DNA of 64,000 bases from Streptomyces sp. NBC_01775. GTDB taxonomy: Bacteria > Actinomycetota > Actinomycetes > Streptomycetales > Streptomycetaceae. Of the stretch, positions 30,541-46,470 are shown in pieces. The position numbers and the translations under genes were made by a program. The stretch covers positions 186,001-250,000 of the forward strand of contig NZ_CP109105.1 in assembly GCF_035917675.1 (NCBI RefSeq). The letters run 5' to 3'. How positions within the stretch are numbered: the stretch's first letter is position 1; the number at the start of each line of letters is the position of its first letter. The notes under the pieces are model-generated. The model was not told where the DNA came from. It saw only the letters and a list, made by a program, of their open reading frames with translations, and made no database searches.

Positions 30541-30730
30541 TCGCCCTGGAGGGCGACCGCCACCCTCCGGGGCGACCGAGGATCGCAACCACACCGGCCC
30601 GGCGTAGATGGGCCACAGGATGTTGTGGCGGTCGTCCTCCGCGTCCTCCGGGGCGACTGGGGATCGCAACCTCGCCCTGGTCGACGACGAGGGCCACGAC
30701 GCGGGGTGGCGGTCGTCCTCCGTAGCCGAC
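30539..30730 (+). CRISPR. relic of the second CRISPR type, about three decayed repeats
   Basis: Repeat-like segments end CCTCCGGGGCGACCGAGG then ATCGCAAC at 30589, and CCTCCGGGGCGACTGGGG then ATCGCAAC at 30670. A third start GTGGCGGTCGTCCTCCG lies at about 30706. The first has an extra GGTCGCCCTGGAGGGCGACC palindrome, and the second carries an extra TCCTCCGCG. Spacer-like gaps are about 35 and 34 nt. The same repeat type is seen at 21291-21388. No cognate cas genes are in the window. Confidence 0.55.
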
Positions 30731-30734
30731 GTGG

Positions 30735-30940
30735 TGGGGTGCGGCGTCGCGGGCAGGCATGAACTTGGCGAGGCCGCGGACGTGCCCGACGGCCTGGTGC
30801 GCGTCGTCGGAGACGGTGAGCGCGACGTGTCCCAGGCGGCCCCAGGGTGTGCCGGGTCTGGCCTGGGCCACCCAGTTCCAGGGGATCGTCTTGACAGCGT
30901 AGGTAGCGATGATCCGCTCGTACCCGTCGCCGGGCTATCC
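30735..30940 (-). pseudogene. isoaspartyl-type methyltransferase fragment
   Basis: Reads GYERIIATYAVKTIPWNWVA, then QARPGTPWGRLGHVALTVSD and AVGHVRGLAKFMPARD. This matches part of a PCMT-like protein methyltransferase. The usual residues between ARPG and PWGR (ARIVA in the second copy) are missing. A related, separately broken copy lies at 45990-46470. Confidence 0.55.
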
Positions 30941-33067: not shown

Positions 33068-33266
33068 CTGCCCCGGGGAACGCCGACTGCGCCGGGGCGA
33101 CAACGTCGGGGACGCGGCGCGCACCTACCCGCTTCGGTGCCCTTTTTGGCGTGACCGCACCGCTGGCCCTGAGCTGTTTGCGATCCCCGGCCCTGATGGC
33201 GCGGTGTCCGAGCGGGCCGGGCGGCTGGGGAAAGGTGCTGTCGGGCTTGTGGCGAACGGGTGAGGC

Positions 33267-33304
33267 GGCCCTGTTCTCCCGAAGCTGCCGCGAAGTGACA
33301 AGTA
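33267..33304 (+). repeat. left 38-bp terminal inverted repeat of the Tn3 element
   Basis: GGCCCTGTTCTCCCGAAGCT then GCCGCGAAGTGACAAGTA; exact reverse complement of 44508-44545. The target duplication GAGGC precedes it. Confidence 0.95.
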
Positions 33305-33306
33305 AC

Positions 33307-34314
33307 TCAGCGTGTCGTTAGGGCCTTGGCTTCTGTGCGAGGTTCAGGCACCTCGCTGCCGGTGAGGGCGGCGAAGTCGACGTGGGCCTGTTCGATGGCT
33401 TCGGGGTACGCCACCCGTTTCTCGTTCTCGGCGAGTGCGCGGTAGATGCTGGCGACGGACGGGCTCTGCCCCTTGCGCTTGCCGGTAGGGATGATCAGGT
33501 CGGGCTGGATCTGCTCGACGGACTCGCCGTTCGCCCGCCTGAGGAGCACGGTGTGCAGCATGTCCTCGGTGATGACTGGCGGCCGGCCGCCGTGCTTGCC
33601 CTTGCGTGCCGCGGTGTCGAGCCCTTCCAGGGTCGACTCCCGGATGTTCTCCCGCTCGGTCTCCGCCATCGCTGCGAAGAACGCGAAGAGCAGCTTCCCT
33701 GGACCGGTGGGGTCGTAGATGCCGGGCAGGGGTCCGGCCAGCATCTCCAGGACCAGGCCGTGGGCGGTGAGGTGGTCGGCGAGGGCGGTGAGTTCGGCGG
33801 CGTCGCGGCCGAGCCGCTTCATCTCGTAGACGGTGAAGATGACCCGGCAGTGCGGGGCGTGCGCCTTGACCTCTCGCGCCGTCCGCAGTGCCTCCTCGAA
33901 CTTCGGCCGGACCCGTACCCGGGTGCTGATCTTCTCGCTGAAGATTTTGTCCCTCGGGATGCCGTGCTTGCTGAGTGCGTCGAGCTGGGAGTCGAGTTCC
34001 TGCCCGAGCGTCGAGCAGCGGGCGTACCCGATGCGGATGTCCGCGCTCGGCAGGGCCGGGTCGATCGGCGCCGGGGGCGGGGTGCCCGGCCGCCACGGCC
34101 GGCCCGGTCCGCGGTCGGCGGGGGTCGGCACCCGCAACGCCTTCTTCAGCCGGGGCACCATCGTGAAGCGGCGGGTGTGGTAGGCGGAGGCCACCGCGCC
34201 ACCGCGCGAGCGGCACGGCGAGCCGGGCTGCGCGTCACACTTCGGGCAGGTGTGCTGTTCGACGTCGTCCGCGTCCGACCGGTCGGTCGGGGAAGGCTGC
34301 TGAGGGTCCGTCAT
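33307..34314 (-). CDS. tnpR: serine resolvase of the Tn3 element
   Basis: 335 residues from ATG 34314. A short N-terminal zinc-finger-like CPKCDAQPGSPCRSRGG (as in other actinobacterial DNA-interacting proteins) precedes the resolvase domain IRIGYARCSTLGQELDSQLD, whose Ser in RCST is the likely nucleophile. KRLGRDAAELTALADHLTAH and FAAMAETERENIRESTLEGL follow. A C-terminal HTH includes KGKHGGRPPVITEDML and SPSVASIYRALAE. It should resolve cointegrates at a res site. It is the first gene inside the left terminal repeat. Confidence 0.88.
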   Translation of the reverse strand: MTDPQQPSPTDRSDADDVEQHTCPKCDAQPGSPCRSRGGAVASAYHTRRFTMVPRLKKALRVPTPADRGPGRPWRPGTPPPAPIDPALPSADIRIGYARCSTLGQELDSQLDALSKHGIPRDKIFSEKISTRVRVRPKFEEALRTAREVKAHAPHCRVIFTVYEMKRLGRDAAELTALADHLTAHGLVLEMLAGPLPGIYDPTGPGKLLFAFFAAMAETERENIRESTLEGLDTAARKGKHGGRPPVITEDMLHTVLLRRANGESVEQIQPDLIIPTGKRKGQSPSVASIYRALAENEKRVAYPEAIEQAHVDFAALTGSEVPEPRTEAKALTTR

Positions 34315-34477
34315 GGCCCCGGATTTTCGCACAATGCAAGTCTCAGAAGGGGGTCCGTCCCGCTTTTGAGTGAGAACGGGTTCTGAGAACGAATCCGGGT
34401 CCGGCGAGGGTTCGGTGGCCTGCTGTTGATCTTGCTCGCGCAAAGGGTCGTTTGTGAGAGCCGGGCGTCGACTTCGG
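34315..34477. promoter_or_regulatory. candidate res site of the Tn3 element
   Basis: 163 bp upstream of the resolvase gene, where Tn3 elements keep their resolution site. It contains repeated GAACG words (GAGAACGGGTTCTGAGAACG, 34370-34389) and a degenerate pair CGCACAATGCAA/TGCTCGCGCAAA (about 34329 and 34432). Boundaries are not certain. Confidence 0.4.
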
Positions 34478-35286
34478 TCAGAGAGGCAGGTCGGCGGCGA
34501 AGGCGGTGATGGCCTCGGCGAGGGCGTGGGGGCCCGTGAGGAAGGCGTCGTGGGCTTCGCCGGGGATCTCGACGAGGCGGGCGTCGGGCAGGGCCTTGTG
34601 CAGGCGGCGGGAGACGTCGGTCAGCCAGCGGGGGCTGAGTTCGCCGATCACGAGGAGGGTCGGGATGTTGAGGGTGGCGAAGCGGGTGAGGTCGTCGCCG
34701 AAGCTGTCCATCGCGCGCATCTCGCGGGCCCATGTCGGGGTCATGGACGCACGGATGGCCCAGAACGGGGTCTGGCGGAACTCCTCGATGGCCTCGTCGG
34801 GGAACTTCAGGAAGTTCCGCAGCCCGAGGGTGAGGGCCTGATCGAGGTCGCCTGCCTGGACGGCCTCCTCAAAGGGAGCGATGGCGTCGCCGCCGACGGG
34901 GCCGCCCAGCGGGATCGGGGGCTCGTAGAGGATGAACGCTGCCGGGAGCTGGTGCAGGGCGTGAGCGAGGGTGACCAGTCCGCCGTAGGAGTGGCCGAGC
35001 AGGATCGCGTCAGGGCCGGCGAGGTCGAGGATGGCGGCAATGTCGTCGGCCTCCTGCTGGATGGTGTGCTCGCTGTGGTCGCCGCTGGCGCCCCGGCCGC
35101 GGCGGTCGATCGCGTAGGTGGTGAAGTGCGGGGCCAGCAGGTCGGCGAGGATCTGCCAGTCCTGGGCGGCGTTGAGGGCGCCGGGGGAGACGATCAAAGG
35201 GCGGCCCTGGCCGGTGACCGTGACGGCGATCTTTGTGCCGTCGGTGGAGGTGACGTGGGCCTGGCGGCGGGGGGAGCGGCAGTCAT
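34478..35286 (-). CDS. alpha/beta hydrolase, transposon cargo; start disturbed by a frameshift
   Basis: About 270 residues. The fold is clear: GQGRPLIVSPGALNAAQDWQ, YAIDRRGRGASG, nucleophile elbow LLGHSYGGLVT, an acidic residue in LLVIGELSPRWL, and a His in GEAHDAFLTGP. The natural ATG at 35286 has a good GGAAG site. It is out of frame with the enzyme by one base at a run of six G (35269-35274); seven would make it fit. An in-frame ATG at 35365 exists but gives an odd N-terminus. Either the gene is silenced or the run is miscounted. It is divergent from a PadR-type regulator. Confidence 0.75.
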
Positions 35287-35373
35287 GATCTTCTTCCTTG
35301 TGCGGCCGGGCGGGCAGCCCGCCCGGGCTGGCCTTGCAGGCGGTACGGAGGAGGCGCCTCCGCATTCACCGTA

Positions 35374-35405
35374 ACATCGAAACGATGTACACATCGTTTC
35401 GATGT
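35374..35405. promoter_or_regulatory. perfect 15-bp inverted-repeat operator
   Basis: ACATCGAAACGATGT-AC-ACATCGTTTCGATGT between the hydrolase and the PadR-type gene. Each arm is itself nearly palindromic. It is probably the regulator's binding site, and the right arm ends 15 bp before the regulator's ATG. Confidence 0.8.
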
Positions 35406-35419
35406 GTGATCCTGGAGTC

Positions 35420-35980
35420 ATGCTTGAACTCGCGATACTCGGCTTCCTCGCCGCAGGCCCCCTGCCCGGTCACGAGCTGCGCCGCCGCATCACGCACCTG
35501 ACCGGCTACAGCCGTCCGGTCAGCGACGGCACCCTCTACCCGGCGATCAACCGGCTGACGAAGGCTGGCCTCATCGAACGGCGCCCCGCCCCCGAGGCCG
35601 GCGGCGGCCGGTACGTGCTGAACCTGACCACGGCAGGACGCGAGGACATACTGCGGCGGCTGCGGGAACCTGCCGAGCACGAGATCACCGACTTCTCCCG
35701 CTGGTTCACGATCCTGGCGTTCCTCTCGCTGCTGCCCGACAGTGCCGAGCAGCACGCCGTGCTGCGCCGCCGTCTGGACTTCCTGGAGACCCCCGCCAGC
35801 TTCTTCTACGACGGCGACACCCCGCTGCGCGCCGAGCAGGTCACCGACCCCTATCGGCGCGGCATGCTGCTCACCGCCCGCGCAACCAGCCGCGCAGAAC
35901 GCGCCTGGCTCCACGAGATCCTGGACGGCGACGGCATCCGGGCAGCGGACGAACAGCTCCACCCGCAGACCCACCCGTGA
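35420..35980 (+). CDS. PadR-family regulator
   Basis: 186 residues from ATG 35420, behind GGAG. The PadR winged helix is plain: LELAILGFLAAGPLPGHELR, then GTLYPAINRLTKAGLIER, and the wing GGGRYVLNLTTAGRE. The C-terminal helical domain is of the Vir-like type (RWFTILAFLSLLPDSAEQHA). An earlier in-frame start at 35402 would lie in the operator. It likely represses itself and the divergent hydrolase, and perhaps the oxidoreductase 15 bp downstream. Confidence 0.88.
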   Translation: MLELAILGFLAAGPLPGHELRRRITHLTGYSRPVSDGTLYPAINRLTKAGLIERRPAPEAGGGRYVLNLTTAGREDILRRLREPAEHEITDFSRWFTILAFLSLLPDSAEQHAVLRRRLDFLETPASFFYDGDTPLRAEQVTDPYRRGMLLTARATSRAERAWLHEILDGDGIRAADEQLHPQTHP

Positions 35981-35995
35981 TCGGAAGGACTGAAC

Positions 35996-36970
35996 ATGCT
36001 TGCCTCCTGGTACGACCAGCAGGGCCCGGCCGCCGAAGTGCTCCAGTTCGGTGAGCTGCCCGACCCCACCCCCGGCCCCGGTGAGGTCCGTGTCCGCGTC
36101 ACCGTCTCCGGCGCCAACCCCGGCGACACCAAGAAGCGGCGCGGCTGGACCGGCTCGGCCATGCCCTATCCGCGGGTGGTCCCGCACAGCGACGCCGCCG
36201 GCATCATCGACGCCGTCGGCGACGGCGTCGACACGCGCCGCGTCGGGACGCGCGTGTGGGTGTACGGCGCCCAGTCCTACCGCCCCTTCGGCACCGCCGC
36301 CCAGTACACCGTCGTCCCCGGCGACCTCGCCGTCCCCCTGCCCGACCACCTGTCCGACGATCTCGGCGCGAGCCTGGGCATCCCCGGCATCACCGCGCAC
36401 CGCACTGTCTTCGCCGACGGTCCCGTCGACGGCAAACTGGTGCTGGTCAACGGCGTCCTCGGCGGGGTCGGCTCACTGGCCGCCCAGCTCGCCCGCTGGG
36501 GCGGCGCCACGGTCATCGGCACCGTCCGCCGCGGCACCGAACTGAATCGGATCGACCCCGCAGTCGTCTCCCACGCCGTCGCCCTCGACTCAGGCGACCC
36601 CGCCGCCGCGATCCGCGCACCCGACGGCGTGGACCGGATCATCGAGGTTGCCCTGTCCGACAACGCCGACCTGGACGACGCCGTCGCCGCGAACGGCGCG
36701 GTCATCGCCGCCTACGCCACCCGCGACGACCGCACCGAGATCCCGTTCTGGACCCTGCTGTTCAACAACGTCACCCTGCGCCTGCTCGGCAGCGACGACT
36801 TCCCCGCCGAGGCCAGGCGCCAGGCCGCCCGCGATCTCACCGCCGCGGCCGCCGTCGGCGCCCTCACCGTCGATGTCGGCGACCGCTTCCCGCTCGCCGA
36901 CATTGCCAAGGCCCACGACCGCATCGACGCCGGCGGTCGCGGGCGCGTCCTGATCGACGCCCCCCAGTAA
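35996..36970 (+). CDS. quinone oxidoreductase / zinc-independent MDR reductase
   Basis: 324 residues from ATG 35996. A GroES-like N-terminal half (GELPDPTPGPGEVRVRVTVS, GANPGDTKKRRGW) is followed by an NADPH-binding Rossmann half (LVNGVLGGVGSLAAQLARWG, ATVIGTVRRG) and FPLADIAKAHDRI near the end. The zinc-binding cysteines of alcohol dehydrogenases are absent, so it is of the NADPH:quinone reductase type (EC 1.6.5.5-like). It is in one operon with the PadR-type gene and is passenger DNA of the Tn3 element. Confidence 0.88.
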   Translation: MLASWYDQQGPAAEVLQFGELPDPTPGPGEVRVRVTVSGANPGDTKKRRGWTGSAMPYPRVVPHSDAAGIIDAVGDGVDTRRVGTRVWVYGAQSYRPFGTAAQYTVVPGDLAVPLPDHLSDDLGASLGIPGITAHRTVFADGPVDGKLVLVNGVLGGVGSLAAQLARWGGATVIGTVRRGTELNRIDPAVVSHAVALDSGDPAAAIRAPDGVDRIIEVALSDNADLDDAVAANGAVIAAYATRDDRTEIPFWTLLFNNVTLRLLGSDDFPAEARRQAARDLTAAAAVGALTVDVGDRFPLADIAKAHDRIDAGGRGRVLIDAPQ

Positions 36971-37245
36971 AGAAACTCCGGCGTGACCTCCTCATCCCCC
37001 CGCAGTCGAGCGTGAGGGCGCTGCGGGCGGGTGGAAGCCTGCGGGTCGGGCGCGGTGCGGGGACCAGGCAGCAGGGCCACTGCGGCAGCGAGATCGAGGT
37101 GGGAGTTCATGTCCAGCTCGAACCGGCCGTAGGGGTTCACATGGGTCCAGAACAGCGGTGACAGGGCCCGCCGGTCGGCATCGGTGAGCCGCTTCTGCCA
37201 CTTCTTCTCACTCAGGATGTCCTGGAGGAGCAGGGTGTTGATGTG
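36971..37245 (-). pseudogene. tnpA: 3' end of the Tn3 transposase gene, cut off by the nested element
   Basis: From the His codon at 37245: HINTLLLQDILSEKKWQKRL, then TDADRRALSPLFWTHVNPYG and RFELDMNSHLDL, the conserved C-terminus of Tn3 transposases. It continues in frame with the 5' part ending at 41603 once 37246-41602 is removed. No stop codon follows the usual end; the frame runs on into the oxidoreductase gene on the other strand, so the very 3' end of tnpA also seems altered. Confidence 0.88.
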
Positions 37246-37300
37246 TTCTCTGAACTCCGTGGCGGGCCCGCAGTACGGCGTCTGATCGGCCAGCGGCAGG

Positions 37301-37843
37301 TCAGGGCAGGAGTCGGCGGGCCTCGGCCCAGGGGAGAAGTTGATCTCGTGCTGGGCCGGGCCGCAGGCGGTTCATGAGCCTTTCAAGATGGGCTGTCAGG
37401 TTCTTGTGCCGCCGTAGCTCGCGGATCTGCTCGATGGGGAGCTCACGCCAACTGCTGGTGAGAGCACGGGCCTGTGGCAGTGTGAGAGCCAGCTCATCGA
37501 GTGTGTCGGACGCCAGCCTCTCGGGGCTCCAATCGGGATCCTTATCGTCGGGACCGAGGTGGTCGATGACCCACATTCGGAGCATGAAGTCCTGTTGGAC
37601 CTCGCGCGATGGATTACCGGGATCGTCACCGTGCATGCGCCGGTTCGCCAGCAGTGACAACTTGGCCCACTGCCGCCGGGCCTCCTGCGGCTGCTCGGAG
37701 TCGTAGTAAGCGTGTTGCTGCGCGACGATACGTACTGCTTCAAGCTGCCGGCGGTCAGCGTCCGCGGTGAACGCCTGAAGGCGCTCGATCGGCCACGTGC
37801 TGAGTCCGAGCTCCGGTTCTTCGTGATCTGCGCCGGTGCTCAA
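37301..37843 (-). CDS. third, small protein of the recombinase trio (TnpC-like role)
   Basis: 180 residues from TTG 37843, overlapping the tnpB stop by 4 bp. It reads LSTWPIERLQAFTADADRRQ, then HAYYDSEQPQEARRQWAKLS and EVQQDFMLRMWVIDHLGPDD, ending LRRHKNLTAHLERLMNRLRP. It is helical and basic at the end. Position and size match the accessory third gene of Tn554-type elements, but no sequence motif proves it. Confidence 0.6.
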   Translation of the reverse strand: MSTGADHEEPELGLSTWPIERLQAFTADADRRQLEAVRIVAQQHAYYDSEQPQEARRQWAKLSLLANRRMHGDDPGNPSREVQQDFMLRMWVIDHLGPDDKDPDWSPERLASDTLDELALTLPQARALTSSWRELPIEQIRELRRHKNLTAHLERLMNRLRPGPARDQLLPWAEARRLLP

Positions 37844-40288
37844 TGATCTTCGCTCCTGGTCCTAGGCATGCCGAGACTGACGGTTGTTCTTCGCCGGGAA
37901 CGACGGTCGATCTGGGCGAGCTTATCCGCGGCGCCGGCGAGGCTGACCTTGAGTCCGTCGACCTCGCCGAGCCAGCCCTCCTTCTCGGCTTCGGCAATCC
38001 GGTCGAGCAGGTTGTCGCGGATGGCGACGATGCGGTGGCGTTGGTCGGGGTCGGGCCGCAGGAGGCTGCATCGCAGATGCTCGTGCACGCAGCTGGTTCC
38101 GTAGGCTCGGCCGCAGTCGCCCAGGGCGACGCGGCGGCGTTCGAAGTGGCCGAGGAACTCCTCCCATTCCGCCTCGGTGGGGGTCCGGTATTCCTCGCTG
38201 GGGCGGGTGGCCCGGCGGCGGGCGATGAACGCGCGGTGGCCGTTGATGACTTCCTCGGGATAGACCGCCTTGTAGCCCGTGGTGGTATTGATGTCGCGGT
38301 GGCCGACCACGAGTTGGGCGATGTGGGGCGGCATGCCGTTCATGATCGCGTCTGTGATGAATAGCCTGCGGAAGTCGTGGGGGCTGAAGGCCAGCGGCTG
38401 GCCGCCGGTGTCGGAGAGTCCGGTGCGCGAGAGTGCTTCGTTGAGCAATTGCCGTATCCCGGACGGCGGGATCGGCCGGTTCTCGACTCCGACGTGGCGC
38501 TGGAACAGCAGCGGCATCGGAGGGTTCCAGACGCGTTCGTGGCCGTCGTAGGAGACCACGAGCGGGACGGCGCCGTTCTCGCCGCGGATGCGGCTGATGA
38601 TCGTGCTGAGCACGTCGGCGAGCTCGGGGCTGATGACGAGCAGACGCTCGGCGTCGGTCTTGGACGGGGCGATGTGCAGCAGCGGGATGAGCTCTCCGGT
38701 GCCGGGCAGCCGGTATTGGACCAGGCTGTGATGGGAGAGCTCGGTCAGCTCCTCGATGCGGATCCCGGTGTGCCTCAGGACTTCGACGATCGCCCAGGAC
38801 CAGAACGCGCGATGCTCCTCCAGGGTGAGGTCGAGGCGCTGCCCGGTGTCGGGGTCAACCGCCCAGACCCTGGCGGCGGGGTTCTTGGTGGTCGGCCGGT
38901 GCCAGCGTTTGCCAGCGGCGACGAAGTCGGTCCCCGGGCGGGCGGCCTGGGAGCTTGCCAGCTGCTCGGCTGCCAGTCGGCGCTGTGCGTCGACGGTCGC
39001 GGCCAGGACCGGCAGGACGGGCAGCCGTTCGCGGGTCCGCTGATCCATGCGCGACTTGCGGCCGGCCCTTTTCCTTCCGGCGCGACATCTCCTCTTCCCG
39101 GATGGGACAAGGTGCCGCCCAAACGCCCCAGCGTGCGGGGTCGTCCATGGCCCACTGGGCGAGGTCTAGGTAGAAGGCCCGCACGACGGCCAGGTGGTTG
39201 AGTCCGCGATCGGCGCGCGGGGTCTGCGTCTCGACGAGCTCGCCGTCGGCGGTCTTGTTACGGACCGTCTTCAGGCCGATCCGATGCTTCCATGCGGCCG
39301 TGACACCCGGGGCCAGGCGTAGAGAGTCGATGCCCGGGTGGTGATCCTCCAGGTCCTTCCAGAAGAGCTTGCCCAGGCTGAAGGCCACCGCCCGCAGCGA
39401 GACGTAGTCGAGGGAAAGCGCGCGTTCGTGGAGGTAGTTGACCAGCAGGTCCCGCACCGGTCGGCAGGCGATGCCGTAGCGGTCGATCATCTGCTCGACG
39501 CTGATCTGGCCCTGGTTCTTGGGGTCGAGGAGGCGGACGGTCGCCGGTGCCTCCCTCGGGAAGACCTCGGTCGCGTGCAGCAACTGGTAGAAGTACACGC
39601 TCGTGTCGATCGAGCGGCTGCCGATGCCGAGCAGGTGGTCCGCCAGCTCCAGGCAGTCCCCGACCGTGATGTCGCGGACCTTGCCGCCCTTGGCCGCCAT
39701 CAGGGTGGCGATCCGCCGCAGCGCGCCGTCCTTGGTGTGGGCGTTGGCCGGGTCTCTCCGGCAGACGGCTGCCAGGGCGGCGAACCCTTGTGGGTCGCGG
39801 CTGCGTGCCATCTCGGCGGTCAGGATCTGCACGGTGCCCGGGGTGAGCAACCAGGACAGGCCGGGCCGGATGACATCGCCGCTGATCAGCACCAGCATGC
39901 CGCTGCCGAGGGCGTCGAAGTCCTTCTTCGGGTCCTGGTAGGACCAGCCGGTGGACTGGAGCCAGGCGGTCGCCAGGTGCCGCCAGGCGATGTTGCCGAC
40001 CTCGTCCGCGCCGCTGGCGTGCCAGCGGTCCTGCCATGTCTGCCCGGGAAACTGCTCCAGCCAGGCCAGGGTCTTGGTCAGTCCGGTTCGGCGCCGGGAC
40101 TGCGAGGCCGGGGAGGCCAGCACGAACGGGGCCGCGAGCAGCCGCTCCGTCACCTGCTCGCGCGGCTGCCCAGTGGCAGCCCAGGCGCGTTCACGGCGGC
40201 GGGGTGGGAAGCGCTTCAGCATCGCCGTCACCTCCGGGCTGTGCTGCCGTTGCGGGGAGCGCTCCGGGGCCAGAACCTGCCTGATCAC
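37840..40288 (-). CDS. second tyrosine recombinase of the trio, one frameshift (TnpB-like)
   Basis: Starts at GTG 40288, overlapping the end of the first recombinase (GTGA). The N-terminal half (LKRFPPRRRERAWAATGQPR, NIAWRHLATAWLQSTGWSYQ, WAMDDPARWGVWAAPCPIRE) runs to about 39060. There GCCGGAAGGAAAAGGGCCGG has one base too many for the frame. The next frame continues SRMDQRTRERLPVLPVLAAT with the catalytic domain: Arg in LRHTGIRIEELTEL, SPHDFRRLFITDAI (HxxR), and GHRDINTTTGYKAVYPEE (His and Tyr). The whole protein would be about 815 residues. The break may be real or a homopolymer miscall. Confidence 0.8.
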
Positions 40289-41523
40289 GCGGTTCCCTCC
40301 CCGAACAGGATGTTCAGCGCTTCTGGCCGGTACGACAGCGGCGACGGCCCGTCCTTCGGTATCGTTGTCGCCGTCACGGTGCCAGCCGCCACGCGCGCGT
40401 GGTGGGCCAGGGCCTGCGCGATGACGTCCTCGGTGAGCGGGTTCAGGTAGAGCTGAGTCGTGCTCAGATGGGCGTGGCCGAGGACCCACTGCACGTCGGT
40501 GAGCGACATGTTGGGATCGCGGGCCATCCGGTAGGCCGCCGTGTGACGCAGGTCATGCAACGACCAGTTGGCCCCGAGTGCGGCGTTCGCCCGGCTGAAC
40601 ATCCGGTAGGCAGCGTGGTAGCTGAGCGCCGTAAAGGGGCGCCGCAGCGTCCACCACAGGGGATCATCCACTCTCGTCGGCACCAGGCCGTGCATCTGGG
40701 CCTGGTAGAGGCGAAGCCAGACGAAGGCGTCCGGCGAGGCCGGCAGCTGCTGGATCGCTCGCGTTCCCTTGCGGATCACCGTGATCAGCTGCTGGCCTGG
40801 ATCGGCGTCGCCGTAGTGCGCGCCCAGCAGTTCGGACGCGCGAGCGCCCGTGGACACCCAGAAGGCCACCAGAGCCCGGTCCCGATTGGAGCCGAGCTGG
40901 GCGAACACCTCGTTGAACTTCTCGTCCGGGATGGACCGCGGCGCCCGCTGAACAGGTCGAGGGCGGTATAGCCCTGACCGTTCATTGCGGTGGAGATCCA
41001 TCGGGTTGTGGTGGGCATGGGCCCTGCTGCCGCACCTGACCAGCGGGAACGGGTTGACCATCGGTCCTGAGCCAACGTCGCGGTGGAAGTCGTAGAAGCC
41101 GCGGAGCACGCTCTCGCTGTGACCGCGGGTGGCTGGCGCGTACTTGCGGCCCGGGCCGGCCTTGCCCGTCACCGGATTCGGGACCGCCGTGGCAGGAGCG
41201 CTGGCGCGGTTCGGCTTGTCGCTGATCTGGATCCAGCGGGAGAAGTCACGCGCCTCGTCCCGGGTGGCCTGGTCCCACGGCACCTCGACAGCCCACAGGA
41301 ACCGGAACCACCGGAGCAGGTCCATCCCGTACGAACGCTGTGTCGTCGCGGGCCGTCCGATGCCCTGCAGGTCCTTCAGGTACACCGCGACTGGCTCGAC
41401 GACCGTGCCTGCCGGATCAAGCAGCCGGTACGGCTCCCACACATCGCTGGTCTCCAGGAGCGACCCTACCCGTGGTACGTCGAGCGAGCGCAGATCCCGG
41501 CCTTCCCCATGTCTCTCGATCAC
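40285..41523 (-). CDS. first tyrosine recombinase of the trio (TnpA-like)
   Basis: 412 residues. A SAM-like N-terminal domain ([40 protein letters not shown]) is followed by the catalytic domain with Arg in [36 protein letters not shown] (HxxR), and [20 protein letters not shown] (His and nucleophile Tyr). All key residues are present and the frame is intact. It is the first gene of the trio operon; its stop overlaps the next start. Confidence 0.88.
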
Positions 41524-41602
41524 GAGCCGGGACCATAGCCACCCGCTTCGCGAGCTGTCCGCTGAACTGCGGAAACTCTCTCGGTAGTTCAGTCAACAGG
41601 TA

Positions 41603-44395
41603 CACCAGCGCCGACTGGAGCAGGTGCAGCGCCAACATCGAGACCTCCTGGGACTCCTTGTCCGAGCCGGTCAGGTCGCCGTCCTTGCCGTAGAACAGGT
41701 CGTGGTTGGCGCTGTTCCAGTTCTCCACGACCTGGAGGCCGTCGTTGATCTCGCGCCGCAGGTCGGCGTCGGCGAGGTAGTCGCAGATGAACGCCGTACG
41801 CACCGCGCGCCCCAGTTCTTCGATCGCCCGGTAGGTGGGGTGCTTGGGCCCGCCGCGGGTGAAGCGCCGCAGGACCTGCTCGGCCTCGGCGGTGCCCAGG
41901 CGCAGGGCGGTGGTGTACTTCACGATCTGGTCGTACTGCTGGCGGATCAGGTCCCAGTCGATCGTTTTGGTCGACAGCACCGGCGCCAGGTTCGGCCACG
42001 TCTCGTCCTGACCGGCCGCCGGCCGGTACAGGCGTGCCGAGCCGACGTTCTTCAGCCGGGGCAGCAGGTTGAAGCCGAGCATGTGGGCGAAGGCGAACCC
42101 GACGATCGAGGCGCCGTGCGTGTCGGTGTACTGCCGGTCGATCTCCACGTCCGTGCAGTGCCGCAGCACGCCCTCGATCATTGCGGCGACCTCGGAGGCC
42201 GAGCAGGACTTGAGCTGGCTGTAGACGCACAGCGACTTTTTCTCGACGTGCCAGTAGATCATCACCCCGGGGCCGCGGTAGCGCTGGTGCCACTCGGTCA
42301 TGAAGTTGCTGGACCAGGAGCCGAACTTCTTGGAATCGCTCGCGCAGGCGGTGCCCTCGCCCCACCATGCGGCATCGCGGGCGGCGAAGGTGGAGTTGAC
42401 CAGCCGCACCAGCGCGGAGCGCAGGTTGGCCCGGTTGACGAACAGGTGCCGCACCCGCCGCAGGACGGCCTCGCTCTCGCCGTGCTTGCCGGTGACCGCG
42501 ACCCGCTTGATGCCCATGTTCGTGCCCAGGGCGAACAGCACCAGCAGCAGCCGGCGCCGCAGCACCGCCTTCGGGACCGCCTCCCTGGTGGCGACCGAGG
42601 TGAACTCAGACGTGAAGCCGGTGGCGAACTCGGCCTCCTTGAGGACGTCGATCAGGTCGATGGTGCCCCAGCGGCGTTCGATCTCCGCCTTCAGTGCGAC
42701 GAGGTTCTCCGGCTCCTCCTGCTTGCCCAGCGGCGAGACCTTGATCCACGGCTCGCCGTGCTTCTTGACGATGTCCACCCCGCCCGTGGTGCCCACCTCC
42801 AGCGCCGTGTCGAAGCGGGTCAGGGCCTCGCGCAGCCGCTTCTGAAGGGCCCCGATGAACTTCTCCGGGTCCTGCGGCTGGCGGATCGCGTCGTAGTGCA
42901 CGTCGCGGTTGTCCTCGAAGTCCGGTGGCAGATCGTCCTCCGGGTTCTGCCACCGGTTCGCGCCCGGCACCCAAATCTCCCGCCGACGCAGCGCATCCCG
43001 CAGGCTGACCAGCACGCACAACTCGTACGGGATGCGCTCGACCCGGCCGCGCTCGTCCACGACCGCCTTGCGCCACTCCTCGCGCACCACCCCGCTCAGC
43101 GGGATCTTCTCCGCCTCGTCGAAGAACGCTCCTTCCTTCGCGATGGGCTGGTCCAGATACCGTTTGAGCAGATCAATCGCGTCCATCACCGGCCGGTAGG
43201 CGGTGTTGTTGCACTTCAGCTCCAGCGCGTTCAGCAGCGGCGAGAGCATCCGCCGCCAGTGGCCCGAGTACGACGAACGCAGCACCGTCCGCACCCGGGC
43301 CCGGTAGCGGGCCTCGTTCGCCGCCGCCTCCGCCGCCAGCGCCTTCAGCGTCGACTCCCCGGCCACCGGATAGATCACCTTGCGGACCGTGCCGCCCGGC
43401 TCGGCAACCGCCGCCTCCGCCAGCCGCAGCAGGATGCCCTCCTTGCCGCGGACCCGCTTCATCTCCTTGTTGAACTCGCCCTCTACCTTCTTCTCCGCGC
43501 GCGTGTTGATCTTCTGCACGAGCTGGATGAACAGCTCCACCAGCGAGTCGGTGATCTCCGTCTGGCGCACATGGCACAGCGTCGACAGCAGCGTGTACCG
43601 CACCGGGCCGGCCGCCGCCCGCAGGTCCGAGGGGTACTCCTTCGACGCCCGTGCCCGCCAGGCGGCCACCAGCTTCTCCGACACGTCCCCGAACAGCTCC
43701 GGCGGCAGTTCCAGCGCGCGGACCCGCTGGAGCTTGTTCACCTCCGCCAGGAGGCTGTCCAGCCCCAGCGCGCCCGGGTCGGCCTTCAGCTCGGTGAAGA
43801 ACGTGCCCCCGCCGCCCGTGCTGTCCTCACTCGCGTCGGCGTCCTCGGCGATCAGGTCATCCAGCCGGGACCGGGTCGCCGCCGACAGCCGGCCCACCGT
43901 AGTCGCGCAGAACCGTTCCTCGAAGGTGCTGACCGCCGACCCCACCAGGCGGGCGATACGCCCCGGCGTCGGCGGCTCCAGCCTGTCCTTGCGGCAGCGG
44001 ACCACCACCGCCTCCGCCAGCCGGTCCCTCGACAGCTCCACCCCGCACAGCTCCACCGCCAGCCACTCGGCGAGCTGGTCCTGGTCCTCCTCAGTGCAAT
44101 CGCGGAAGCCGAACGCGCCCCGGATCTCCACCCGGTGCCGCTTGATCGCCCGCCCCGCCCAGTCGTACGCGGCCCACTCCTCCGCCGCCACCTTCACCTG
44201 CTGAGCGACGTACGCCACCGCCGGCGCCGGGATCTCCTCGGCGTTCTCTGGGAACCGGGCCTCCACCTCGAAGAACTTCAGTAACAGCGCGAACCCCAAC
44301 CGGTTCGCCCCCGACTTGTTCCGCAGCCGCTCCTGATCCTCCTCCAGCAGCGTCCAGACCTCGATCAGGTCCTCCGGCTCCCACTCCTGGCGCAC
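41603..44395 (-). pseudogene. tnpA: Tn3-family transposase, 5' part, interrupted
   Basis: 931 residues of Tn3 TnpA from ATG 44395: [20 protein letters not shown] at the start, then [20 protein letters not shown]. The DDE region has [40 protein letters not shown] and a Glu in [20 protein letters not shown]. The true sequence stops after [11 protein letters not shown] at 41603. Beyond that the frame runs into the nested element and ends at 41417, giving a chimeric tail. With the 3' fragment at 36971-37245 the full protein would be about 985 residues, normal for the family. TnpA is therefore probably inactive unless the insert leaves. Confidence 0.92.
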
Positions 44396-44507
44396 CCCGG
44401 GCTCCTTCCGGCCGTCATGACCGGACCAACGTCGCTGAGCACGGCCCCCGATGAACCCAGAAGATCGAAAACGCTGACGAGCGCACCCCAGATCCGCTAC
44501 AGAGAGC

Positions 44508-44545
44508 TACTTGTCACTTCGCGGCAGCTTCGGGAGAACAGGGCC
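44508..44545 (-). repeat. right 38-bp terminal inverted repeat of the Tn3 element
   Basis: TACTTGTCACTTCGCGGC then AGCTTCGGGAGAACAGGGCC; exact reverse complement of 33267-33304. The target duplication GAGGC follows at 44546-44550. Confidence 0.95.
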
Positions 44546-44550
44546 GAGGC

Positions 44551-45989: not shown

Positions 45990-46470
45990 GTCGAAGTCGA
46001 CGAGGAAATCGCCGCCGCAACCCGGCAGTGACTGAAGCAGGCCGAGGTCGCCGTCCACGTGCACAACGGGGACGGCGAGACGGGTGACGTACCCGGCGAC
46101 GGGTACGAGCGGGTCATCGCTACCTACGCTGTCGAGACGATCCCCTGAGCTGGGTGGCCAGGGCCCGGCCCGGCGCGCGGATCGTCGCACCCTGGGGCCG
46201 TCTGGGACATGTTGCGATCAGCGTCTCCGAGGACGGGCGCCAGGCCGTCGGGCATGTGCGCGGCCTCGCCCAGTTCATGCCGGCCCGCGACACCACCCCC
46301 CGCCACGTCGGCTTCCGTCAGCTGCGTGCCGATCACGAGCCCGCCCACGAACACGGCCTCGCCCGCGATCTGACACCCCTGCACCAGGACTGGCACCTGC
46401 GCTTCGCGCTCCGGGTAGCGGTTCGGCAGTCCCCGCGTATTCCGCGCGCCGGTCCGGGGCGACGTGGGCG
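45990..46470 (+). pseudogene. isoaspartyl-type methyltransferase, nonsense and frameshift
   Basis: Reads TSVEVDEEIAAATRQ then a TGA stop in place of a Cys-like codon, LKQAEVAVHVHNGDGETGDV and GYERVIATYAVETIP. A lost G at about 46148 shifts to WVARARPGARIVAPWGRLGH, VAISVSEDGRQAVGHVRGLA and FMPARDTTPRHVGF. This is the SAM-binding and C-terminal part of a PCMT-like methyltransferase. It is a relative of the shorter relic at 30735-30940. Confidence 0.65.

Follow-up and report, generated by a model that had tools for sequence, protein, structure and literature searches.

A tyrosine-recombinase unit between two codons of a Streptomyces Tn3 transposase gene is a probable site-specific transposon with a repeatedly used target

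Introduction

A stretch of 64,000 nucleotides from Streptomyces sp. NBC_01775 (referred to hereafter as the window) holds a Tn3-family transposase gene, tnpA, that is divided in two by a 4,357-bp unit carrying a short and a long tyrosine-recombinase gene (rec1 and rec2). How did this unit come to lie within a transposase, and could its departure make the gene whole again? A sequence-only reading of the window had claimed that the unit sits exactly between two codons, that clean excision would restore the transposase, and that the insertion could act as a reversible switch on the mobility of the outer transposon. We conclude that the unit is very probably a site-specific transposon of the actinobacterial Tn554-related class, inserted in tnpA by recombination over a 6-bp core, and that its excision would be able to restore tnpA exactly.

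Results

The unit divides tnpA between two codons

The transposase gene is read on the reverse strand and is found in two pieces (L and G numbers label the loci compared; L114 is the intact 1015-residue tnpA used for numbering):

41603-44395, reverse strand: 5′ part of tnpA, 931 codons (PF01526, 3.5e-110; NF033527, 3.3e-237)
37033-37245, reverse strand: 3′ part of tnpA, equivalent to residues 932-1003 of L114 (tblastn, 82% to the L114 tnpA in the near-identical L111, beginning exactly at the junction)

The first piece runs from 44395 to 41603, ending in ...LLQSALV, and the frame resumes at 37245 with HINTLLLQDIL, the unit occupying 37246-41602 between them. In two intact relatives (L114 and L122) the end of the left-flank match and the start of the right-flank match are adjacent bases; in three others (L118, L119 and L121) one mismatched base separates the two BLAST matches, and the letters of all five empty sites show no base gained or lost at 41603|37245. 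The joints of these relatives bear out the claim of an exact insertion between two codons on one strand and in one frame, and their geometry supports the further claim that clean excision would restore the frame. The predicted full-length TnpA of about 985 residues did not hold, the pieces amounting to 931 codons plus at least 72 conserved ones (to residue 1003 of L114), with the window frame continuing to a stop near 36712. Related genes that fail to join SALV to HINT would have spoken against the sequence-only reading, but this outcome did not occur: among 35 loci examined, 29 carried the motif, and all 29 of these intact genes join SALV to HVNT.

The insertion point falls between residues 931 and 932 of L114, 40 residues beyond the counterpart of E881, the catalytic glutamate of the structurally solved Tn4430 transposase. 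By L114 numbering the final 84 residues are severed, and the DDE residues stay with the 5′ piece.

The same codon pair is used repeatedly

This position is not a matter of chance, since five further tnpA lineages are interrupted by related units at these two codons: those of S. iconiensis (L004), S. atratus (L005, L113 and L120; one site), Sciscionella marina (L007), Pseudonocardia parietis (L006, in the opposite orientation) and a second, different tnpA of Streptomyces sp. NBC_01187 (L141), whose element differs from that of the window at one base in 4,357. The interrupted lineages are thus six with the window's gene included; a further NBC_01187 copy (L112), in which the left flank of the L141-type gene (tnpA-B) is joined to the right flank of the window-type gene (tnpA-A), does not add a seventh. 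In a phylogeny of 41 tnpA ends, where L006, L007 and L141 sit on long branches, the interrupted genes are scattered among the 35 intact genes; six state changes are required, well-supported branches forcing at least four, and a single clade of interrupted genes, as one shared ancestral insertion would give, is rejected (approximately unbiased test, p-AU 3.5e-6). The tnpA site is used repeatedly, and in both orientations. Intact genes and further units at this codon pair, both of which the sequence-only reading had suggested looking for, were found.

Such interruption is rare in a sample of 392 genomes of the genus. Among the matches listed, 42 tnpA stretches that outscore the window's run unbroken through the site (counted by eye), a count that is biased when taken alone because split genes score lower; no rec1 or rec2 match and no end motif was found in 13 lower-scoring partial stretches (G294, G296, G055, G237, G274, G016, G141, G137, G195, G011, G050, G170 and G258), and outside the window's genome no rec1 match above 65% identity occurred among the matches listed.

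The element carries one core and the target keeps another

Across the family the ends share one layout: a 6-bp core, then TTGACTGAACT, the body of the element, AGTTCAGAGAA and a second 6-bp core. From 120 rec1 matches we dropped three with partial starts and three below 52% identity, leaving 114 copies. The right end was taken as the first downstream match of AGTTCAGAGAA or a close variant, and the cores were compared in 55 copies (the 59 with a right end within reach, less two duplicates, one short and one nested copy). In the window these features are:

41597-41602, reverse strand: element-borne core TACCTG; copies at this tnpA site carry TACCTG or CACCTG here, whatever the target core
41586-41596, reverse strand: left end motif TTGACTGAACT, present with at most two mismatches upstream of rec1 in 111 of the 114 full-length copies (at least 52% identity), six variable bases preceding the motif
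37246-37256, reverse strand: right end motif AGTTCAGAGAA; the motif or close variants mark the right end in 59 of 111 copies, the remainder having none within the stretch examined
37240-37245, reverse strand: target core CACATC (codons H-I), retained at the rec1-distal end and compared with the right cores of tnpA-inserted copies and with intact genes

The rec1-side core is near-constant within a lineage whatever the target, being TACCTG or CACCTG at this tnpA site and GCCCCG, GCTCCA or GCACCG in a lineage that targets the rec2 genes of sibling elements. Right cores of tnpA-inserted copies are CACATC, CACGTC and CATGTC (CACGTA in the reversed L006). The intact tnpA core is CACGTC or CATGTC in 29 of 29 motif hits and TACCTG in none, and the rec2 target motif has a Cys codon in its core in 65 of 65 hits and GCCCCG in none. 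The rec1-side core thus reads as the element's own, and the rec1-distal core as that of the target. We rejected derivation of the left core from the target, that core never being present in the intact tnpA and rec2 motif hits examined, and likewise a 2-3-bp target duplication, as T or GCC persists in the left core at positions where C, GCA or GCT is found in targets.

Element and target cores agree at their first bases. Over positions 1-6 the two match in 47, 47, 34, 9, 20 and 9 of the 55 copies, against shuffled-pairing means of 26.9, 18.7, 27.6, 9.7, 16.1 and 8.7, such that positions 4-6 lie near shuffled rates; with 47 unique pairs the picture is the same (40, 39, 27, 9, 18 and 9). The flanks of these 47 pairs are weakly palindromic: G is the most frequent base at -6, C at -1, G at core position 1, C at core position 6, G at +1 and C at +6. 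This accords with insertion in both orientations.

A model for insertion and excision

The exact ends, the lineage core and motifs, the target core, the first-base agreement and the repeated tnpA site are given by the sequences themselves, and from them we infer the remaining steps. The element would circularise, creating a joint of the form AGTTCAGAGAA-core-TTGACTGAACT, in which imperfect inverted arms surround its own 6-bp core as spacer. Rec1 and Rec2 would then pair this spacer with the core of the target, a weakly palindromic sequence, and only the first core bases would have to match for strand exchange; the limitation of the agreement to these bases suggests a check by pairing for one strand exchange and none for the other. 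Resolution would leave the element core beside rec1 and the target core at the far end, disabling tnpA. Since the target retains its own core, a like excision, if precise, would leave no scar and restore tnpA exactly.

Several observations weigh against this account. Neither excision nor a circle was observed, the mechanism being drawn from sequence, and the rec2 of the window copy is split. Three of the 114 copies (L022, L040 and L104) have no left motif. Core position 1 disagrees in 8 of the 55 copies, the tnpA lineage usually having T against C there, and the window's target core CACATC is absent from the 29 intact tnpA motif hits, though the second interrupted tnpA of NBC_01187 (L141) has it. 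Variants escape the rec2 motif search, as does the rec2 of the window itself (HEHLRC), which is not one of the 65 hits, and the Rhodococcus element L115 (75% rec1 identity) lies outside tnpA with a right core, TCATGA, that breaks the core rule.

Two recombinases, an accessory gene and the state of the window copy

The genes of the unit all lie on the reverse strand:

40285-41523, reverse strand: rec1, short tyrosine recombinase, 412 aa (PF00589, 2.1e-17)
38855-40288, reverse strand: N-terminal part of rec2 (two-frame tblastn match to the 820-aa rec2 of L115; coding-sequence limits taken from L111)
37840-39048, reverse strand: C-terminal part of rec2, 402 aa, tyrosine-recombinase catalytic domain (PF00589, 2.1e-14)
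37301-37843, reverse strand: accessory third gene of 180 aa (matches no Pfam or NCBIfam model)

The sequence-only reading had called this a recombinase trio. Two tyrosine recombinases and a small gene are indeed present; the window and L115 each hold only two PF00589 proteins and no third tyrosine recombinase, the long recombinase of the window is split by a frame change, and the small gene reads as an accessory part of the unit. Its 185 homologues are in many cases unnamed Streptomyces proteins (one stands behind the rec2 of a distant relative, L116), and a homologue occurs in 3 of 75 downstream regions searched and was not found in the other 72, which does not support a conserved TnpC.

In relatives rec2 is one unbroken gene of 811-821 aa (820 aa in L115 and 811 aa in L116, both with PF00589), whereas in the window it spans two frames, the frame being lost between about 38950 and about 39150. 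The change is common to the window and its near-identical copies, that is, to this copy plus four in three strains: by sequence in L111 and L112, in L141 (same length, one base different), and as expected in NBC_01186 from 100% identity by BLAST only. Because the long recombinase is split, the window copy is probably not self-mobile, though it might be moved in trans by an intact relative. There is a real chance, if somewhat less than an even one, that the insertion is a fossil, with the element dead and the outer Tn3 permanently disabled: two S. atratus copies (L005 and L113) likewise have a broken rec2, that of L007 contains a stop codon, and the window's genome holds no intact tnpA of this type. 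Set against this, the sister insertion with its single base difference suggests recent movement, rec2 is unbroken at the same tnpA site in L004 and L006, and the genome holds a second family member (C1:8831978-8836482; locus L184, G000:C1:8828000-8842000; 63% rec1 identity, in a NucS-like gene) whose rec2 aligns over residues 21-819 and which could possibly supply recombinases in trans.

As a separate observation, the frame change at 38950-39150 is shared by copies lying in different tnpA genes, so either it is tolerated or the copies were moved by other means. The window's genome also contains, at C1:2.12 Mb, a remnant of rec2 that has a right end and a similar flank (the L184/L186/L185 group), and at C1:914 kb a left-end-like motif with no rec match nearby.

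Near-identical copies in NBC_01187

The sister copy in tnpA-B points to recent movement, which may have happened in trans, or else to gene conversion. The latter would have copied the insertion between tnpA-A (window, L111) and tnpA-B (L141) without transposition, an explanation that we consider plausible but place well below an even chance. The two elements are of equal length and 99.98% identical, both have the right core CACATC that is missing from the intact motif hits, and the bases directly around both ends are identical; the flanks, however, stay alike for just 6 bases on the left and some 17 on the right, which would make for a very short tract, and the other four lineages would be left unexplained.

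On a second NBC_01187 plasmid (L117, L123) the 5′ part of tnpA is cut off by the end of the record, 89 bases before the unit, and a reciprocal joint was not found over the first 9 kb of that record. The linear plasmid of 478 kb from this strain (NZ_CP108583; L112, L141, L147, L148) appears near-palindromic, the genes compared lying at mirror positions, and its arms diverge at the right ends of two copies of the unit; recombination within unit copies may have doubled an arm, or the assembly may be at fault.

Excision as a hypothetical switch

Excision could in principle switch the outer transposon back on. We think it very improbable that the insertion serves as a regulated on/off switch of Tn3 mobility and has been selected for doing so. 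The exact in-frame geometry with its retained target core would allow a switch, but rec2 is split in the window and its near-identical copies, the same geometry is found in unrelated targets and hence follows from the mode of insertion, and a search of plasmids yielded no excised form of the window locus. Nor was the outer transposon found with an empty site among plasmids, the three records that cover most of the cargo side all holding the unit.

Hardly credible is a single ancient tnpA insertion, inherited and spread with the transposon in place of repeated targeting: shared descent does predict the relatedness of units in interrupted genes (rec1 75-100%), yet the distribution of interruptions on the tnpA tree, the 95% identity between the window's tnpA end and that of the intact L114, and the reversed orientation of L006 all run counter to it.

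Targets across the family

The claim that the unit favours Tn3 tnpA genes stands for its own lineage, which favours this one spot, and the tnpA-inserted copies do share the codon pair; beyond them other relatives lie outside tnpA, within a family-wide, lineage-specific targeting. In the closest rec1 group L115 lies outside tnpA, and the next relatives lie in the N-terminal domain of a Tn3 tnpA (L043), in a serine recombinase (L008) and in an unassigned gene (L009). Among 102 distinct left flanks, 67 could be assigned a target and 35 could not; assignment used family models, in some cases with scores under the curated cut-off, or protein similarity at the joint; for L063 and L085 the reading frame across the joint was judged by eye, and L002 was placed by means of its longer stretch L184. 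Transposase or site-specific recombinase genes make up 45 of the 67, a raw count, to be read without reference to how common transposase genes are in the host genomes:

rec2 of sibling elements, at a Cys/His motif: 16 of 67
rec2 elsewhere, or a rec2-like gene: 2 of 67
IS110: 7 of 67
IS21: 6 of 67
Tn3 tnpA, at the window's site: 6 of 67
Tn3 tnpA, N-terminal domain: 1 of 67
other Tn3 tnpA: 2 of 67
IS1380: 2 of 67
ISKra4, serine recombinase and other tyrosine recombinase: 1 each of 67
remaining 22: NucS-like 6, type II/IV secretion ATPase 5, SPDY 3, endonuclease VII 2, Ku 2, AAA_22 2, GGDEF 1, GH43_C2 1

Further targets identified by eye stand outside this count: IS256 (L009, L142), IS1380 (L020), IS21 (L144) and a tRNA gene (L096; to judge from its left flank, the element apparently interrupts a tRNA-like sequence in its 3′ part).

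In a 98-row rec1 tree with 64 rows labelled (L103 as Ku, by eye), target needs 18 changes (minimum 17) compared with 45.2 when labels are shuffled, so target choice is largely inherited. The rec2-targeting lineage (L015, L027, L028, L030, L033, L034, L038, L039, L042, L046, L052, L053, L055, L069, L082 and L083), with core GCCCCG (GCTCCA in L034, GCACCG in L038), inserts in both orientations into the CxHEH|AC|xRC motif of a sibling long recombinase, apparently a case of kin disarming kin. We tentatively propose, at rather less than even confidence, that the family consists of lineage-specialised parasites of other mobile elements. Each lineage would have a fixed 6-bp core, matched over its first 2-3 bases to a conserved codon pair, mostly in transposase or recombinase genes (Tn3 tnpA, IS110, IS21, sibling rec2), would insert either way without a footprint, disarm the resident and ride along with it, and might restore the gene exactly; target choice would evolve by change of core and recombinase together.

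The outer transposon and its setting

The window belongs to a plasmid and is part of the second contig of a two-contig genome of 9.34 Mb. The closest named plasmids are those of Streptomyces sp. NBC_01795, NBC_01186 and NBC_01187, the first being 99.99% identical to the window over the 22 kb compared. The outer Tn3-family transposon spans 11.3 kb between 43-bp inverted repeats and holds, besides tnpA, the following:

33266-33308, no strand: terminal inverted repeat, resolvase side (43 nt, 98% complementary to 44504-44546)
33307-34443, reverse strand: resolvase (PF00239, 5.4e-26)
34478-36970, no strand: cargo open reading frames for an alpha/beta hydrolase, a PadR regulator and an NADPH:quinone reductase (names from the near-identical annotated NBC_01795 plasmid)
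44504-44546, no strand: terminal inverted repeat, tnpA side (pairs with 33266-33308)

About 2 kb beyond either end of this transposon lies a further inverted repeat of about 220 bp (83%; 30724-30934 and 46092-46313), noticed via L111.

Discussion

A class known from gene pairs gains defined ends, a testable core rule and named targets. If true, the disarming of transposons at conserved codons, free of a footprint and flexible in orientation, would be a distinct strategy among tyrosine-recombinase elements; it would also offer knock-outs that can be reversed exactly and, possibly, a set of recombinases whose target rules are short and readable. Among the titles and abstracts listed in searches of the open PMC literature (subscription journals being mostly outside it), none described such targeting.

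The published accounts compared here are taken in excerpt. Van Houdt et al. (2012; PMC3414803) defined the class from pairs of a short (about 350 aa) and a long (611-828 aa) tyrosine recombinase, to which the adjacent short rec1 and very long rec2 of the unit correspond. Some pairs, of the Famint36/41 type, have no obvious TnpC, as on pRHL2 (PMC3414803). The pRHL2 element (NC_008270) matches our unit at 69.7% over 63% and has the same end motifs, the left with one mismatch; it is presumably the listed Famint36/41 pair, the only one shown for pRHL2. The window copy departs from the class in its split rec2 and accessory third gene. Our link to Tn554 rests on that work, since Staphylococcus is not among the ten genera named for plasmid matches of the L115 rec1 (56 further matches being unnamed).

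Tn554 and Tn552-II are site-specific tyrosine-recombinase transposons with a 6-7-bp core and attachment within coding sequence (PMC12486829). Tn554, by the title of a paper cited there, makes no target duplication (PMC12486829), and the joints of the five intact relatives likewise show none. No counterpart of the Tn554 TnpC was recognised by family models in the unit, whose third gene has a homologue in 3 of the 75 downstream regions. The polarity differs: in Tn554 and the strand-biased circularizing elements (SE) the target core is found on the left and the donor core is brought in on the right (PMC12486829, PMC10214605), whereas our family keeps the target core at the rec1-distal end and its own core on the rec1 side, in tnpA and rec2 insertions and in both orientations. 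This contrast with the published left-to-right carry-over takes the left end of Tn554 and Tn552-II to be the tnpA end, as gene order suggests.

SE combine an ordinary and a large tyrosine recombinase with a 6-bp spacer (PMC10214605), and SE and GInts have a circular form and few targets (PMC10214605, PMC5385486), traits shared by our unit if its predicted circle forms. SE and GInts have four conserved genes and SE leave a 6-bp footprint on the right (PMC10214605, PMC5385486); most relatives of the unit have two core genes, and the target core is retained with no donor footprint on the right. RIT (recombinase in trio) elements resemble the unit in their run of tyrosine-recombinase genes in one direction but comprise three recombinases, where the unit has two catalytic-domain proteins only. 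Ends, 6-bp cores, targets and polarity are not treated in the excerpts of Van Houdt et al. (PMC3414803). Relative to the known class, what appears new is the repeatedly used tnpA site, the end and core structure with its reversed polarity, an agreement confined to the first two to three core bases, and targets kept within lineages.

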